Below are positions 53,289 to 59,139 of a stretch of 64,000 bases of DNA, one piece after another; the first letter of the stretch is position 1; each line of letters starts with the position of its first letter. This DNA is from Microbacterium sp. (GTDB lineage: Bacteria; Actinomycetota; Actinomycetes; Actinomycetales; Microbacteriaceae): positions 42,114 to 106,113 of the forward strand of contig JAFKIL010000008.1 of assembly GCA_017306415.1 (NCBI GenBank), in the 5' to 3' direction. A program made the position numbers and the translations under genes. The notes under the pieces are model-generated. The model was not told the origin of the DNA. It worked only from the letters and a program-made list of their open reading frames with translations, and made no database searches.

Positions 53289-53870
53289 TCAGACGATGCG
53301 CGAGTGCTCGCCGAGGCGGTGCCAGGTGCGGTTGTGGTACACAAGCGCGTCGCCGTGCGCGCCCGGTTCGATGTCGCGCTGGATGCTCGACTGCAGCGCG
53401 TGCGCGACCACCACGGTGGAATCGCCGGCCGACATGCGGTTCACGACGGCGCAGCGCACCCATGCACGGGCACCGTGGTAGACGGGCTCCCCCGTGACGA
53501 GTCGCGTCCAGAGCGCGGCATCCGCGAACCGGTCGGCGCCGCTCGTGGCGGCGAGGCGCGCGAGCTCGAGGTCCTCCGCGTCGAGCAGGTGGACGACGAT
53601 CGTGGATGCCGCGACGATCGCGGCCGTCGCGGACGAGAGCGACGAGAGTGAGAACACGAGGAGCGGCGGGTCGGCGCTGATCGAGGATACCGACGTCGCG
53701 GTGAGCGCGACGGGCCCGTCCGGTCCGTCGGCGGTGATGATGGCGACGCCGCCGGGGTGGCCGCGGAAGAGGGTCTTGAACTCGTCGGCGCTGAGCGACT
53801 CCCCGACATGCGCCGGCGGCCGCACCGGCTCTGGCGCGGTCGGCGAATCCTGGGGGCGGAACGAGGTCAT
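53289..53870 (-). CDS. flavin reductase-family protein
   Basis: 193 residues. FRGHPGGVAIITADGPDGPV, ALTATSVSSISADPPLLVFS and the later VVHLLDAEDLELARLAATSG match the split-barrel FMN-binding reductases (HpaC/DIM6 type). The final block HALQSSIQRDIEPGAHGDAL replaces the usual GxxxHxxxxG pattern. It supplies reduced FMN to a partner monooxygenase; the FMN monooxygenase gene at 56307 is an obvious candidate although it is 2.4 kb away on the same strand. It is divergent from the cysteine-gene promoter. Confidence 0.85.
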   Translation of the reverse strand: MTSFRPQDSPTAPEPVRPPAHVGESLSADEFKTLFRGHPGGVAIITADGPDGPVALTATSVSSISADPPLLVFSLSSLSSATAAIVAASTIVVHLLDAEDLELARLAATSGADRFADAALWTRLVTGEPVYHGARAWVRCAVVNRMSAGDSTVVVAHALQSSIQRDIEPGAHGDALVYHNRTWHRLGEHSRIV

Positions 53871-53968
53871 GACTTCGACGCTACGCCGACTTCGCGGCGC
53901 CGGATCCGCTCACGGGCGATTGTGTCCGGTGGTTGCCCCGTGTTTCGCCGTGTGACGACGCGCTCGAC

Positions 53969-53997
53969 TTGCCCGATCCGGGTGGGCCACGTAGGGT
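53969..53997 (+). promoter_or_regulatory. promoter of the cysteine/transsulfuration operon
   Basis: TTGCCC (53969-53974) and TAGGGT (53992-53997) are exactly 17 bases apart. The -10 ends six bases before GTG 54004, so the mRNA should start on the leader ORF. Confidence 0.65.
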
Positions 53998-54003
53998 CGT
54001 GGC

Positions 54004-54030
54004 GTGCTGACCTGTCGCTGTTGTCGCTGA
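54004..54030 (+). CDS. leaderless cysteine-rich leader peptide (attenuator ORF)
   Basis: GTG at 54004 lies six bases after a good -10 and opens an eight-codon frame, MLTCRCCR, then TGA. Three of eight codons are Cys (TGT), in a genome where TGT and Cys are rare. Leaderless polycysteine ORFs upstream of sulfur operons in mycobacteria act as cysteine-responsive attenuators, and this one stands before a cysteine-forming gene pair. Hairpins GCACTC/GAGTGC at 54037-54051 and CCGCGC/GCGCGG at 54080-54096 follow, the latter close to the ribosome site CAGGAG. Confidence 0.7.
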   Translation: MLTCRCCR

Positions 54031-54036
54031 GCGTGC

Positions 54037-54096
54037 GCACTCATCGAGTGCCCGCAGCCCCTCGCGACCCCGACAGCATCCGCGCTCTCCGCGCGG
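54037..54096 (+). promoter_or_regulatory. leader hairpins of the cysteine operon
   Basis: GCACTC-ATC-GAGTGC (54037-54051) starts six bases after the leader stop codon. CCGCGC-N5-GCGCGG (54080-54096) ends shortly before CAGGAG. Stalling of the ribosome on the Cys codons could shift which stem forms and so expose or hide the start of the cbs gene. Confidence 0.5.
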
Positions 54097-54115
54097 CACC
54101 TCCCAGGAGCATTTC

Positions 54116-55123
54116 GTGCGTTACGCAGAAAGCGTCGCCGACCTCGTCGGCAACACCCCCCTCGTCCGCCTGAGCCGCGTCACCGCCGGCATCCGCGCCA
54201 CGGTCCTCGCGAAGGTCGAGTACCTCAACCCGGGCGGCTCGGCCAAGGACCGGATCGCCGCCCGCATCGTCGACGAGGCCGAGCGGACCGGCCTCCTCCG
54301 CCCCGGCGGGACCATCGTCGAGCCGACGAGCGGCAACACCGGCGTGGGTCTCGCCCTCGTCGCCCAGCAGCGCGGATACCGGATGGTCTTCGTCGTCCCC
54401 GACAAGTTCGCGGGCGAGAAGGTGGCCGTGCTCCGGGCGTACGGCGCGGAAGTGGTCATGACGCCCACGAACGTGCCGCCCGACGATCCGCGCTCGTACT
54501 ACGGCGTCTCCGACCGCCTCGCGCGGGAGATCCCCGGCGCCTTCAAGCCGAACCAGTTCGCCAACCCGAACGGGCCGCGCAGCCACTTCGAGACGACCGG
54601 CCCCGAGATCTGGCGCGACACCGACGGCCGGGTCACGCACCTGGTCGCCGGCATCGGCACCGGGGGCACGATCAGCGGCACCGGCCGCTTCCTCAAGCAG
54701 GTGTCCGGCGGCGCGGTGCAGGTCGTGGGCGCCGATCCGGACGGGTCGATCTACTCGGGCGGCCCGCTGCACTCCTACCTCGTCGAAGGCGTCGGCGAAG
54801 ACTTCTACCCGCAGACCTTCGATCCGTCCGTCGTGGACGAGTACCACCGCGTCGGCGACGCCGAGGCCTTCGCGATGACGCGCCGCCTCGCACGCGAGGA
54901 GGCGCTGCTCGTCGGCGGCTCGAGCGGCATGGCCGTGGTCGCGGCGCTGCGGACGGCGCGGGACCTCGACGAGGACGCTGTGGTCGTCGTCGTCCTCCCC
55001 GACCACGGCCGGGGCTACCTCGGCAAGCTCTACGACGACGACTGGATGCGCGCCCGCGGATTCGACGTCGACGACCACGCGGCATCCGCCGATCGCCTGC
55101 CCGACACGAGGAGCGACTCATGA
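54116..55123 (+). CDS. cbs: cystathionine beta-synthase / O-acetylserine sulfhydrylase-type enzyme
   Basis: 335 residues from GTG 54116 after CAGGAG. PLP enzyme of fold type II: the Schiff-base lysine is Lys44 in NPGGSAKDR, with the substrate loop TSGNTGVGLALVA and phosphate-binding GIGTGGTISGTGR. It lacks C-terminal CBS domains, so allosteric SAM control is unlikely. Together with the next gene (overlap ATGA) it would run homocysteine plus serine to cystathionine to cysteine. Cysteine synthase activity cannot be excluded. The cysteine-rich leader upstream suggests attenuation by cysteine supply. Confidence 0.87.
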   Translation: MRYAESVADLVGNTPLVRLSRVTAGIRATVLAKVEYLNPGGSAKDRIAARIVDEAERTGLLRPGGTIVEPTSGNTGVGLALVAQQRGYRMVFVVPDKFAGEKVAVLRAYGAEVVMTPTNVPPDDPRSYYGVSDRLAREIPGAFKPNQFANPNGPRSHFETTGPEIWRDTDGRVTHLVAGIGTGGTISGTGRFLKQVSGGAVQVVGADPDGSIYSGGPLHSYLVEGVGEDFYPQTFDPSVVDEYHRVGDAEAFAMTRRLAREEALLVGGSSGMAVVAALRTARDLDEDAVVVVVLPDHGRGYLGKLYDDDWMRARGFDVDDHAASADRLPDTRSDS

Positions 55124-56277
55124 CGACCGATCACCTGCACGGATTCGACAGCCTCGCGGTGCACGCGGGTCAGGACGCCGATCCGACGACCGGCGCGGTG
55201 ATCCCGCCCGTGCACTTCTCCAGCACGTATGCCCAGGACGGCATCGGGGGTCTCCGCGGCGGGTACGAGTACGGACGCAGCGGCAACCCGACGCGCACGG
55301 CGCTGGAGACGCAGCTCGCCGCGCTGGAGGGCGGACGGCATGCGCTGTCGTTCGCATCCGGGCTGGCTGCTCAGGACGCGCTCCTGCGCGCGGCGCTGAA
55401 GCCGGGCGACGAGGTCCTCATCGGCGACGACGTCTACGGCGGGACGTACCGGCTGCTCACCCGCGTCCTCGGACCGTGGGGCATCGGCGTGCGCGTCGTC
55501 GACACGAGCGACGCGGATGCCGTCCGCGCGGCGCTCGCGGAGCGCGCACCGCAGCTCGTGTGGGTCGAGACCCCCAGCAACCCGCTCCTGCGCATCGCCG
55601 ACATCGCGGGCATCGCGGCCGCGGCGCACGAGGTCGGGGCGCTCGTCGTCGTGGACAACACGTTCGCCTCGCCGGCCCTGCAGCAGCCGCTGTCGCTCGG
55701 CGCCGACGTCGTGGTGCACTCCACGACGAAGTACCTGGGCGGCCACTCCGACGTCGTCGGGGGAGCGCTCGTGATCGACGACGACGAGCTCGCCGAGCAG
55801 GCGAAGTTCCTTCAGTTCGCGGCCGGCGCGGTGTCCGGCCCCCTGGACGCGTGGCTCACGACGCGGGGCATCAAGACCCTCCCGCTCCGCATGCGCCGGC
55901 ACAGCGAGAACGCCCGCGCGGTCGCCGGCCATCTGAACGCCCACGGCCGGGTGGCCCGCGTCTACTACCCCGGACTCGCGGAGCACGCCGGCCACGACGT
56001 CGCCGCGCGCCAGATGTCCGACTTCGGCGGCATCGTCTCGGTCGCGCTCGCCGACGCGGCCGCGGCGCGTCGCTTCGCCGAGTCGACGCGCGTCTTCACG
56101 CTCGCCGAGTCGCTCGGGGGCGTCGAGTCGCTCGTCAACTACCCGGACGCCATGACCCACGCGTCGGTGCGGGGCACGGCGCTCGCGGTGCCCGAAGAGG
56201 TCGTGCGGCTGTCGGTCGGCATCGAGTCGGCGGAGGATCTGCTCCAGGACCTCGACGACGCGCTCGCCGGCCTCTGA
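55120..56277 (+). CDS. cystathionine gamma-synthase / gamma-lyase
   Basis: 385 residues of the Cys/Met-metabolism PLP family. The N-terminal tetramer-contact region FDSLAVHAGQDADPTTGAVI with YEYGRSGNPTRTALE, the PLP-Lys204 in VVHSTTKYLGGHSD, and SLGGVESLVNYPDAMTHAS near the C terminus are typical. It either splits cystathionine to cysteine (metB/mccB-type lyase) or forms it; the pairing with cbs favours the lyase direction. It overlaps cbs by four bases and converges on the FMN monooxygenase gene. Confidence 0.9.
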   Translation: MTTDHLHGFDSLAVHAGQDADPTTGAVIPPVHFSSTYAQDGIGGLRGGYEYGRSGNPTRTALETQLAALEGGRHALSFASGLAAQDALLRAALKPGDEVLIGDDVYGGTYRLLTRVLGPWGIGVRVVDTSDADAVRAALAERAPQLVWVETPSNPLLRIADIAGIAAAAHEVGALVVVDNTFASPALQQPLSLGADVVVHSTTKYLGGHSDVVGGALVIDDDELAEQAKFLQFAAGAVSGPLDAWLTTRGIKTLPLRMRRHSENARAVAGHLNAHGRVARVYYPGLAEHAGHDVAARQMSDFGGIVSVALADAAAARRFAESTRVFTLAESLGGVESLVNYPDAMTHASVRGTALAVPEEVVRLSVGIESAEDLLQDLDDALAGL

Positions 56278-56306: not shown

Positions 56307-57632
56307 TCAGAAGGCGTCGAGGTTCGCCCGCAGTCCGCCGTCGACGAACTCCGAGCGGAGGATGCCGCGACGGCGGAGGATCGGCACGAGCTCGTCGAGC
56401 GTGCGATGGATCGTCACCGGGTGGAGGTCGCCGGAGAAGATGAGGCCGTCGTTGTCGGCGTCGTCCCCCAGCGCCTCGATGAGGTCGGCCAGCTCGTCGG
56501 CGGTGCCGACCGTGCCGCTGATGCCGTCGCCGATGCGCGTGAGCCGGGCCTTGCCGGTGAGGATGTCGCGCAGCGGCACGTCGTCGAACGAGTCGAACCT
56601 CCCGCGCAGTCCCTTGATCGTGCCCTGCGACACGTGCTCGCCGAAGATCGCGGGGTCGAGCGGCCGGTCGAGGTCGAGCGACGTCAGGTCGGTCTCGAGG
56701 TCGCTCGACCACGCCTCCGCGACCTCGAGGAGCGTCGCATCGCTCGGCTCGGCGGAGGCGCGCACGATCCGGTCGGCCTCCTCGGCGCTCGCCGCGACGA
56801 TCGGCTTGAAGACGAACAGGCTCTTGATGTCCGCGGCATCCCGGCCGTGCGCCGCCGCCGCGGCGTGCACGCGCTCGCGGTAGGCACGGATGCTGTCGAC
56901 GTCCAGTGGCGAGAGCGCGAGCTGGATCTCGGAGTTGCGCCCCGCGAAGTCGAGCCCGCGACCCGATCCGCCCGGTGAGGCGACGATCGGGTCGCCCGCC
57001 GGCAGCGGCGCGGCGTTGAGCGGGCCGTCGAAGGTGAAGTACTCGCCGCGGTGCTGCACGGCCCGGATCTTCGAACCGTCGGCGTAGATCTGCGACACCG
57101 GGTCGGCGATCAGCGCGCCCTCGTCCCAGCTGTGCCACAGCAGCCGCAGCGCGTCGAGCCACTCCTGCGCCCGGTCGTAGGCGGCGTCGTGCGGCAGGCG
57201 CTCGGTGCCGAAGTGGTGGGCGCTGCCGACGTCGGTGACGACGTTGATGCCGACGCGGCTGCCGCTCAGGTGCTGCAGCGACGCGAACTGCCGGGCCGCC
57301 TGATACGGATGCCACGCCGCGGGGTTCGCGGTCGGGATCACGCCCAGGTGGCGGGTGGCGGCGAACAGATAGGGCGCGAGCGTCCAGGGGTCGTGCTTGG
57401 GGCCGCCGTAGGCCTTGCGCACCCGCAGGTCGAGCGTGGCGGGGGTGATGCCCACCGACAGGGCGTCCTCGATCAGGACGAAGTCGAACCCCGCCTGCTC
57501 GAGGTCGCGCGCGGACTGCTGGTACAGGTCGGGCCGCTGCCAGTCGTAGCCCCACTCGTAGTACGGCCGCGCCCAGCCGTGCGGGCCGAACCCGCGGGAG
57601 AGGAACCAGCCGAAGTGCTGCTGCCTGGTCAT
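56307..57632 (-). CDS. LLM-class FMN-dependent monooxygenase (NtaA/SnaA/DmoA-like)
   Basis: 441 residues. The bacterial-luciferase-type barrel shows FGWFLSRGFGPHGWARPYYE, DFVLIEDALSVG, GVIPTANPAAWHPYQAARQF with the phosphate-binding arginine region, GSRVGINVVTDVG and PIVASPGGSGRGLDFAGRNS. NtaA/SnaA-type enzymes need reduced FMN from a separate reductase and oxidise organic sulfur compounds or chelators. It overlaps the MetY gene by four bases, so it probably frees sulfur that MetY then incorporates; the flavin reductase at 53289 may supply FMNH2. Confidence 0.88.
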   Translation of the reverse strand: MTRQQHFGWFLSRGFGPHGWARPYYEWGYDWQRPDLYQQSARDLEQAGFDFVLIEDALSVGITPATLDLRVRKAYGGPKHDPWTLAPYLFAATRHLGVIPTANPAAWHPYQAARQFASLQHLSGSRVGINVVTDVGSAHHFGTERLPHDAAYDRAQEWLDALRLLWHSWDEGALIADPVSQIYADGSKIRAVQHRGEYFTFDGPLNAAPLPAGDPIVASPGGSGRGLDFAGRNSEIQLALSPLDVDSIRAYRERVHAAAAAHGRDAADIKSLFVFKPIVAASAEEADRIVRASAEPSDATLLEVAEAWSSDLETDLTSLDLDRPLDPAIFGEHVSQGTIKGLRGRFDSFDDVPLRDILTGKARLTRIGDGISGTVGTADELADLIEALGDDADNDGLIFSGDLHPVTIHRTLDELVPILRRRGILRSEFVDGGLRANLDAF

Positions 57633-58957
57633 GCGATCCCCGCCCGGGTGAGGATGTCGGCGGCCGCGACGGCGGCGAGGGCCCTGTCGAGGTCGGCGAT
57701 GAGGTCGTCGGGCTCCTCGAGTCCGATCGAGAGGCGGAGGAGGCCCGGACCGATCCCCGCGGCGGCGAGCTCCTCGCGCTCGCGCTGCACGTGGGTCGTC
57801 GTGGCCGGGTGGAGCACGAGCGAGCGGACGTCGCCGAGGTGCGTCATGCGTGTGAAGAGCCGCAGCGCATCCGTGAAGGTCCTGGCCGCCTCGGTGCCGC
57901 CCTCGAGCGTGACCGCGAAGACCGACCCCTGGCCGTCGGGCAGGTACCGCGCGGCCAGGTCGCGGTACGGGCTCGAGTCGAGGCCGCTGTAGTCGACCGC
58001 CGCGACGCCCGGCTGCTCCTCGAGCCAGCGGGCGATGCGGAGGGCGGTGGCGGACTGACGCTGGACCCGCAGCGAGAGCGTCTCGATCCCCTGGAGGATC
58101 AGGAAGGCGTTCAGCGGCGACGGCACGGGCCCGAAGCGCAGGGCGATGTGGCGGGCGTGCTCCAGGAAGGCGGCGCGACCCGCCCGCTCGACGACGGTGC
58201 GGCCGTCGAGCCCGCGTTCGACGGCGAGCTGCGGGAAGCGGTCGGGAGCGGCATCCCACGCGAAGGTGCCGCCGTCGACGATGACGCCGCCGAGCACCGT
58301 CCCGTGGCCGGCGAGGAACTTGCTCGCCGAGTGCACGACGATGTCGGCGCCGTGCTCGATCGGACGCACCAGGTAGGGGGTGCCCAGCGTGTTGTCGACG
58401 ATGAGCGGGAGCCCGTGGCGGTGAGCGACACCCGCGATCGTCGCGATGTCGAGCACCTCGTTCTTCGGGTTCGGGATCGACTCGGCGAACAGCGCCTTCG
58501 TCTCCGGGCGGATCGCGGCCTCCCATGCGGCGGCATCGTTCTGCGCGGCCACGAAGGTGGTCGTGACGCCGAGACGGGCGAGGTCGTCGCGCAGCAGCTC
58601 GCGAGAGCCCTCGTAGATGCTCGACGCCGACACGATGTGGTCGCCCGCCGCGACCAGAGCGAGCACCGTCGTGACCACGGCCGCCTGACCGCTCCCGACC
58701 AGCAGCGCGTCGATGCCGCCCTCGAGGTCGGCGATGCGCCGCTCCGTCGCGGCGTTGGTGGGGTTGCCCACCCGCGTGTAGCTGAAGCCGTCGTCGGTGC
58801 CGGCGAAGCGCGCGTGCCCCTGGTCGAAGTCGTCGAAGACGAACCCTGCCGTCAGGTAGATCGGGGTGGCGCGTGGACGATGGGCGCCGTCGAGCTCGAT
58901 CCCGGCATGGAGCTGACGGGTGGCGAAGCCGAGGCCGGCGGTCGAGGCGTCCGTCAT
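57629..58957 (-). CDS. metY: O-acetylhomoserine sulfhydrylase (MetY type)
   Basis: 442 residues. ATRQLHAGIELDGAHRPRAT then PIYLTAGFVFDDFDQGHARF, FSYTRVGNPTNAATERRIAD, Lys213 in VVHSASKFLAGHGT and the long insert after it fit O-acetyl-L-homoserine aminocarboxypropyltransferase, which makes homocysteine from sulfide. No ribosome site precedes ATG 58957; instead a 12-codon frame, 58992 to 58954, ends in TGA overlapping it. Cotranscribed with the FMN monooxygenase. Confidence 0.88.
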   Translation of the reverse strand: MTDASTAGLGFATRQLHAGIELDGAHRPRATPIYLTAGFVFDDFDQGHARFAGTDDGFSYTRVGNPTNAATERRIADLEGGIDALLVGSGQAAVVTTVLALVAAGDHIVSASSIYEGSRELLRDDLARLGVTTTFVAAQNDAAAWEAAIRPETKALFAESIPNPKNEVLDIATIAGVAHRHGLPLIVDNTLGTPYLVRPIEHGADIVVHSASKFLAGHGTVLGGVIVDGGTFAWDAAPDRFPQLAVERGLDGRTVVERAGRAAFLEHARHIALRFGPVPSPLNAFLILQGIETLSLRVQRQSATALRIARWLEEQPGVAAVDYSGLDSSPYRDLAARYLPDGQGSVFAVTLEGGTEAARTFTDALRLFTRMTHLGDVRSLVLHPATTTHVQREREELAAAGIGPGLLRLSIGLEEPDDLIADLDRALAAVAAADILTRAGIA

Positions 58958-58992
58958 GACAGGACGAGGGGACGGGGCGCGGACGAGGGCAT
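58954..58992 (-). CDS. possible 12-codon leader ORF coupled to metY
   Basis: ATG 58992 lies six bases after TATCGT, a possible -10 on the minus strand, and reads MPSSAPRPLVLS before a TGA that overlaps the metY ATG. The -35 region is weak. It could place ribosomes at metY, which lacks its own site. No cysteine or methionine run is present, so attenuation by sulfur amino acids is not suggested. Confidence 0.3.
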   Translation of the reverse strand: MPSSAPRPLVLS

Positions 58993-59139
58993 GCCGACAC
59001 GATATGCGGCGACCGGCAGACTCGGCGCACCGGGGCGTCATGCGGCGAAATGGAGCGAGGTCTCGCGGTTAGCCGGTGGTTCCGCCCATGATGGAGGGGC
59101 CGACGCCACGCGGCATCCGCCACGCGAGAGGTGAATCAG

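Follow-up and report, generated by a model that had tools for sequence, protein, structure and literature searches.

A conserved, putatively leaderless cysteine-codon uORF upstream of cbs–metB in Microbacterium: a candidate ribosome-mediated attenuator

The window, that is, the whole 64-kb stretch of Microbacterium sp. DNA that was analysed, carries on its forward strand a cbs gene followed by a metB-like gene. cbs (54116..55123) starts with GTG, preceded at 6 nt by the Shine-Dalgarno (SD) sequence AGGAG (54105..54109), and encodes a 335-aa protein whose best model is TIGR01137, at a score (490.8 bits) below the cut-off of 510.25. The protein has the PF00291 (PALP) domain only and represents a short form of cystathionine beta-synthase without the CBS (Bateman) domains; a domain scan found the CBS domain in two full-length relatives. 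The second gene (55120..56277) encodes a 385-aa cystathionine gamma-synthase/lyase, which matches PF01053 and passes the NF005871 cut-off of 513 with 623.5 bits. The two genes overlap by 4 nt and are probably co-transcribed, as their arrangement suggests. Enzymes of these two kinds make cysteine from homocysteine (reverse transsulfuration). The first-pass annotation had recognized such a pair here and the profile matches agree with it. Moreover, in two Microbacterium records CBS and MetB are fused into a single polypeptide, PF00291 followed by PF01053 (L057, 2001-4238, 746 aa; L058, 2001-4313, 771 aa), which argues that cbs and metB serve one pathway. Both fusion loci have the Cys leader described below. 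Neither cbs nor the metB-like gene of the window contains a Cys codon. The genome also encodes cysK, and PF01507 (PAPS reductase/CysD/CysH family) has no match in the whole genome, so the transsulfuration route may matter more than usual. A flavin reductase gene (53289-53870, minus strand) lies beside the operon, which is also flanked by genes for an NtaA/DmoA-type FMN monooxygenase and an O-acetylhomoserine sulfhydrylase-like protein (56307-59123 and 57629-59041, minus strand); judging from these genes, the surroundings look like an organosulfur-use neighbourhood.

Upstream of cbs there is an eight-codon ORF (54004..54030, plus strand), GTG CTG ACC TGT CGC TGT TGT CGC TGA, encoding MLTCRCCR, in which three of the eight codons are TGT Cys codons, just as the first-pass annotation had described it. 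Its stop codon is separated from the cbs start by 85 nt and the two frames differ (offset 112). A −10 hexamer, TAGGGT (53992..53997), lies 6 nt 5′ of the GTG, a spacing shared by relatives, and is preceded by a −35-like hexamer, TTGCCC (53969..53974), with a 17-nt spacer. Transcription would accordingly begin on the G of GTG at 54004, as the promoter spacing indicates, and the uORF, similar to those of relatives, is likely to be translated without a leader of its own. The hexamers and the 17-bp spacing proposed earlier are thus in place and conserved in relatives, whereas a consensus sigma-70 scan called no promoter at the window leader, so that the case for a promoter is one of conservation. 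Indeed, [TC]ANNNT is found 6-7 nt 5′ of the uORF in 124 of 124 distinct upstream regions, although these regions were aligned by this very test. Among the same 124 regions, G reaches 74-75% two and three bases 5′ of the −10 hexamer, the −35 match score is 2.99 compared with 2.26 in shuffled sequences, and 37 regions match the −35 hexamer in at least four of six positions, as do 5% of shuffles. Furthermore, in a scan of both strands of the window for TANNNT followed at 6-7 nt by ATG or GTG and an ORF of up to 30 codons with at least two Cys, the MLTCRCCR site was the sole match; 30 dinucleotide shuffles of the window yielded 0.13 matches on average and none with CC or CxC.

The conservation of the leader was examined in two overlapping sets, the best 80 of at least 497 CBS relatives (the named set) and a sample of 198 genomes of the genus. 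A close CBS was found in 148 of these genomes (149 rows), and 147 loci, the window's own included, were usable after L290 (contig end) and L292 (a second CBS-like gene, 56% identical) had been dropped. In 44 of the best 80 of at least 497 named relatives and in 101 of the 147 genus loci (100 scanned, plus L165 after re-orientation), cbs is preceded by a short uORF that contains two or more Cys codons; the other 46 genus loci lack it. The search required at least two Cys codons and preferred candidates with a −10 hexamer, which favours the corresponding counts; the Cys requirement was checked by searching the non-carriers for any leaderless short uORF. TANNNT lies 6 or 7 nt 5′ of the start in 43 of 45 leaders (the window and the 44 named ones; 3-10 nt allowed), the remaining two having CANNAT at the same distance from ATG or GTG, and in 99 of 100 genus leaders (5-8 nt allowed). 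MLTCRCCR is the commonest peptide (41 of 100 genus leaders), followed by variants such as MSLTCRCCR, MQTCRCCR, MLTLRCCRR and MLTCRCCRPCC, whereas more distant forms are found in Herbiconiux (MFVNLLCCRR), Naasia (MISPTRCCRRR and MFRLTCRCR) and Cellulomonas gelida (MRSCCRP). The 36 non-carriers among the best 80 of at least 497 include Arthrobacter, Blastococcus and Phycicoccus.

The non-carriers are arranged differently. All 46 genus non-carriers have TANNNT 6 nt (39) or 7 nt (7) upstream of cbs itself, a position at which it occurs in none of 100 genus carriers, and their cbs therefore looks leaderless; in the named set, TANNNT lies 5-8 nt 5′ of cbs in 17 of the 36 non-carriers among the best 80 of at least 497. 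None of the 46 genus and 36 named non-carriers has a leaderless ORF between 4 and 16 codons long, whether it contains Cys or not, indicating that the promoter and the Cys uORF come and go together. Thus, the check proposed beforehand, alignment of related leaders, showed Cys codons, GTG/ATG and promoter spacing to be conserved as a set in roughly two thirds of the loci of the genus, and also in certain genera beyond it. The opposite outcome that had been named, a retained promoter with lost Cys codons, was seen in no case, since all 46 genus non-carriers lack the uORF promoter and have one at cbs. This joint conservation of uORF, start and promoter speaks for the attenuator interpretation put forward in the first-pass annotation, in which the leader would respond to cysteine.

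Several further observations concern these loci. Leaders of the MLTCRCCRPCC group (L030, L031, L032, L038, L044 and others) have five Cys codons, the extra two being TGC or TGT, and most of them begin with GTGTTG, complementary by eye to CAACAC/CGACAC beside the SD. In the last 120 nt of many leaderless-cbs loci (e.g. L244, L264, L276), an imperfect inverted repeat, GGATGCCGCGG...GCAACACA...CCGCGGCATCC, can be recognized by eye; it is perhaps an operator or a terminator of the preceding gene. A record titled Vibrio cholerae 35D (L081) clusters inside Arthrobacter, and one titled Planococcus (L047) has a Microbacterium-type cbs with the leader; both are probably mislabelled or contaminated. In the same genome as the window, no other Cys leader was found in the 1.5-kb flanks of seven PF00291/PF01053 loci, namely, ilvA-like (L131), cysK (L132), unnamed (L134), trpB (L135) and three O-acetylhomoserine sulfhydrylase-like genes (L136, L138, L139), weaker PF01053 matches (L140-L143) being left out. 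A pattern search across the family gave a repeated near-match in one other genus (L109-L115), which falls inside open frames of 638-967 codons and was taken as chance.

The Cys codons of the leader are unusually uniform. The named and genus sets together comprise 125 distinct leaders, 123 of which fit the core pattern, and in these 123 every core Cys codon (348 of 348) is TGT. Beyond the core, by contrast, TGC (21) outnumbers TGT (11) among the Cys codons, and the genes of the window, approximated by the longest non-overlapping ORFs of at least 200 aa, use 179 TGC and 35 TGT. The two leaders that do not fit the core pattern (L059, L066) read TGC TGT. The codon between the core Cys codons varies (CGC 60, CGT 42, CGG 12, others 9). 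Where a core codon does not encode Cys, it still ends in T in 15 of 21 cases (CTT 6, CGT 7, GGT 1, CCT 1; the remainder are CTC 3 and CGC 3), although a single change elsewhere in the codon would retain the third-base T anyway. It therefore seems, from the codon patterns, that the third base of the core codons is held by something besides the protein sequence. Slow decoding of TGT by itself would leave the TGC of extra Cys codons unexplained. The wobble bases are probably fixed by pairing in a helix, designated P1, so that the same bases would be both the sensor codons and one arm of a hairpin.

In the minimum free energy (MFE) fold of the window leader, the 5′ arm of P1 begins at the end of codon 5 and reaches slightly beyond the stop codon (54017..54031) and pairs with a C element, CTCGCGACCCCGACAGC (54061..54077), complementary to the Cys codons. 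Cys2 and Cys3 are in the helix and Cys1 is outside it. P1 encloses a local hairpin, H2 (54034..54056), and is followed by another, H3 (54080..54096; CCGCGC-TCTCC-GCGCGG), with no U-tract after it. The two hairpins announced by the first-pass annotation thus appear in the fold as H2 and H3, but the largest predicted structure, and the better supported one, is P1, which it had not mentioned. The RNA from 54004 to 54145 folds better than shuffled sequences (z −2.9, 0 of 200). Single-sequence folds of most genus-type leaders likewise pair the Cys codons with a downstream element, typically CGACGACCCCGACAG, around H2, with H3 following, and the C element includes near-invariant columns of a 35-sequence alignment. 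Over 45 leaders, the expected number of P1 pairs is 9.5 on average compared with 5.1 when the downstream sequence is shuffled; 40 of the 45 exceed the mean of their own shuffles and 22 do so at p≤0.05. For the window alone the values are 10.1 and 6.8 pairs (p 0.15). The same pair-probability test did not reveal P1 in the leaders of Herbiconiux, Naasia and Cellulomonas. In the region downstream of the uORF, GTCAGC, complementary to GCTGAC of codons 1-3, is present in 24 of 125 distinct leaders, and GACAG in 40 of 125.

On average over the class, pairing of a uORF with its own downstream region is stronger than after permutation (−18.05 versus −17.24, with 0 of 2000 permutations as low; 118 leaders, seven of other genera left out). 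However, this permutation result depends largely on the leaders with the PCC extension, and the own uORF pairs better than foreign uORFs do on average in no more than 46 of 118 leaders and in 26 of 55 distinct uORFs (p 0.37). RNAalifold, applied to 35 leaders in a plain MAFFT alignment, gave only three pairs, none covarying, and no P1, since H2 and H3 vary in length and are poorly aligned. P1 is thus supported as a predicted helix by single-sequence folds against shuffles and by one permutation test. Within P1, T opposite A and C opposite G is simply what the pairing rules dictate and was not counted as evidence. Rfam gave no match at E≤1 in 53850-54200, and nowhere in the window did a match reach the gathering score. 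A search for intrinsic terminators in 53500-54600 was negative, and H3 is followed by CACCTCCCAGG.

We considered how these structures might affect the cbs ribosome site. A general sequestration of the SD by the 5′ end ('P0') appeared convincing in the folds of L023, L024, L054, L058 and L060, but it failed three tests and was rejected as a rule. Although the 5′ end sequesters the SD when the window is folded with only 30 nt of cbs, duplex energies between the 5′ end and the SD are −10.0 for own, −9.9 for shuffled and −10.6 for foreign sequences. The SD is less tightly closed by the real uORF than by a shuffled one (3.4 versus 3.8; the real one is higher in 17 of 45), and foreign 5′ ends hold it tighter on average in 33 of 45 leaders (by the Wilcoxon test, p 0.004 against the model, and 0.31 for the 25 distinct heads). 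With a stalled ribosome, opening the SD becomes cheaper by 0.6 kcal/mol (3.4 before, 2.8 after), 27 of 45 leaders lying above shuffles; the window shows no such decrease (3.2 to 3.6). H3-loop/SD pairing was seen by eye in the window and is not universal by eye. The whole ribosome site (−20 to +13; 124 leaders, L165 left out) responds more clearly than shuffles do: its opening cost decreases from 9.05 to 7.44 kcal/mol with a ribosome on the Cys codons, a gain of 1.60 kcal/mol versus 0.32 in shuffles, and 85 of 124 leaders exceed the mean of their own shuffles. The effect is modest (mean z 0.5), with 68 of 124 gaining at least 1 and 12 of 124 losing at least 0.5; the window's own cost drops from 13.1 to 11.6, a gain of 1.6 that the spread of its shuffles (−0.4, sd 3.1) encompasses. 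The classical alternative, a ribosome at the stop codon, was also tried and opens the site to 7.58, about the same as the 7.44 for a stall at Cys1. Since ribosomes at the stop codon and at the Cys codon open the site alike, residence time rather than place would carry the signal.

Collectively, we favour a cysteine-sensing, ribosome-mediated attenuator of cbs-metB that probably acts by translational attenuation, our confidence in this output being moderate, and slightly reduced because the window's own gain is not above the shuffle spread. The mRNA would begin with its own start codon, so that a ribosome could load at the 5′ end at once. With enough Cys-tRNA, it would pass the eight codons and leave the uORF, upon which the Cys codons would pair with the C element some 30-60 nt downstream to form P1; P1 together with H2 and H3, and in some species an extra pairing of the 5′ end, would then hinder opening of the cbs ribosome site. 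When cysteine is short, the ribosome would wait on a Cys codon and keep P1 open, and cbs-metB would be translated more. CBS and MetB, themselves without cysteine, could then make cysteine from homocysteine. We infer the regulatory role of P1 from the folds, whereas the step from stalling to increased cbs-metB translation draws weak support from the modelled opening costs. That the leader responds to cysteine is likewise presumed, as are the direction of the response and whether it acts on translation, transcription or mRNA stability.

The same Cys-codon sensor might instead act through Rho-dependent termination in the stretch between the uORF and cbs, which we regard as unlikely. This stretch is indeed C-rich and G-poor: 3′ of the uORF stop, C and G amount to 0.47 and 0.24 over the 125 distinct leaders, above and below the controls (0.35/0.33 in the 80 nt 5′ of 46 leaderless cbs genes and 0.35/0.35 before 29 ORFs of the window). 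The lack of a U-tract terminator fits as well, and Rho has been suggested for leaders of Mycobacterium, P. acnes and B. longum in the accessible part of PMC1262725. However, stalling on the Cys codons would leave the C element uncovered, and in its simple form this output therefore has the wrong sign for a biosynthetic operon; moreover, the C-rich stretch may merely keep the leader unfolded. Another output of the same sensor, rather improbable in our view, would be protection of the mRNA, a ribosome stalled at the extreme 5′ end shielding it from 5′-end-dependent decay. Stalled ribosomes near the 5′ end stabilize mRNA in other leader systems, and here the uORF apparently coincides with the 5′ end, which the ribosome would therefore cover; yet such protection leaves P1 and the fixed TGT codons unexplained.

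The two remaining readings dispense with codon sensing. According to one of them, the leader is a conserved RNA structure, either protein-bound or merely a folded 5′ leader, and the Cys codons arise only incidentally from the hairpin sequence. The third-base T retained in most core codons that do not encode Cys is what this would predict. By contrast, it does not account for the leaderless short uORFs 5′ of cbs always having at least two Cys codons in the two sets, a Cys-poor one being found in none of the 82 non-carriers, nor for at least two Cys occurring in lineages of different RNA sequence (Herbiconiux, Naasia and Cellulomonas gelida), nor for the conservation of the start codon and its distance from the promoter, and we consider it very unlikely. 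Finally, although the peptide sequence is conserved, an action of the eight-residue peptide itself, for example, as a thiol or metal sensor, is hardly credible: the residues around Cys change freely (LTCRCCR, LTLRCCRR, LTCRCCRPCC, NLLCCRR, RSCCRP) and peptides as short as this are rarely stable. Translational attenuation is therefore retained as the preferred output of the cysteine sensor.

The distribution of the leader was compared with the domain composition of CBS. All 33 genus carriers measured, the window included, comprise 31 short and 2 full-length enzymes, whereas the 16 non-carriers measured (16 of 46) are all full-length. On a FastTree tree of 129 CBS N-terminal parts, for which the root was not inferred and the fusions L057 and L058 had no length label, the leader requires three changes and the short form one. 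As the truncation is a single change on the tree, the association is without statistical support. The two full-length carriers (G547 and G477, loci L293 and L294; 457 and 460 aa) branch beside the short clade, suggesting that the leader may precede domain loss; one of their enzymes was scanned and gave a sub-threshold match to the CBS domain. Furthermore, the best 80 of at least 497 named relatives include seven full-length carriers, from Herbiconiux, Naasia and Cellulomonas gelida, and one short non-carrier, Brachybacterium (L065), indicating that the leader and the short form are not strictly tied. As a tentative scenario, possible rather than probable, control of CBS in the genus may have moved from protein to RNA: one clade would first have acquired the Cys leader and later, in a single event, shed the C-terminal CBS (Bateman) module, whereas the second lineage retains the module and has no leader, its mRNA seemingly starting at the cbs ATG. 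Codon sensing would thereby have replaced allostery, with the sensor codons serving as a hairpin arm.

Leaders of related kinds are known. As far as the accessible part of PMC1262725 goes, a study of 2005 had already predicted leader peptides with Cys codons, which belong to cys operons in Mycobacterium and P. acnes and to cbs in B. longum; it found no conserved terminator hairpins and suggested Rho. These leaders share with the Microbacterium leader an actinobacterial uORF, Cys codons near the stop, a position 5′ of cbs in one case and the lack of a terminator; that part of the paper does not discuss a leaderless start, and for the Microbacterium leader we additionally propose P1. The same excerpt describes the LEU element of actinobacterial leuA, in which a codon run of the leader ORF also base-pairs within the leader RNA, but it concerns leucine and a different RNA and pairs directly with the SD (PMC1262725). 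Tandem Cys codons inside a leader stem are likewise found in the uORFC-8-2 motif 5′ of cysS in Rhodobacterales, which, according to the portion of PMC8632094 available, has an AUG uORF, an intrinsic terminator with a U-run and predominantly UGC codons, whereas the Microbacterium leader has no terminator and uses UGU. A U-tract terminator 5′ of the first gene, which characterizes trp-type transcription attenuators, was not found in 53500-54600. In the open-licence literature, we found no earlier description of a Cys leader in Microbacterium. If the proposed mechanism holds, ribosome-read control by cysteine, so far described in mycobacteria and in a few older predictions, would also operate in a large environmental genus and reach reverse transsulfuration. 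The Cys codons, the arm of the helix and the ribosome site each vary on their own among more than 100 natural variants, so that the output of terminator-less leaders (translation, Rho or stability) becomes directly testable, and in CBS allosteric control may have given way to control by codons.

The closest comparison is with mycobacteria, in which leaderless polycysteine short ORFs were reportedly shown by Canestrari et al. in 2020 to be cysteine-responsive attenuators. For M. smegmatis, the accessible parts of PMC9031893, PMC13236596 and PMC9094748 describe leaderless Cys uORFs as cysteine-responsive attenuators. Common to both are the leaderless start, a short ORF rich in Cys codons and a cysteine gene downstream; in both, ribosome stalling is expected to change mRNA structure. 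The sequence of the Microbacterium leader has the corresponding class traits, namely, leaderless −10 spacing, enrichment and conservation of Cys, and a cysteine-metabolism gene downstream. The two differ in that the mycobacterial polycysteine run is contiguous, whereas in the CRCC of Microbacterium Cys alternates with Arg, the longest run in the window being two within eight codons; here contiguity is taken as a trait of the mycobacterial family from part of PMC9031893 and from a title, and run length is treated as variable. Furthermore, the Microbacteriaceae leader has cbs-metB as its target, its Cys codons form a helix arm with a fixed wobble base, and sequestration of the SD by the 5′ end fails as a rule. 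Strict membership is less likely because the contiguous Cys run is absent and the ribosome-site results are mixed. Thus, it is likelier that the Microbacterium leader works like the mycobacterial leaderless Cys-uORF attenuators than that it is a member of their class in the strict sense.
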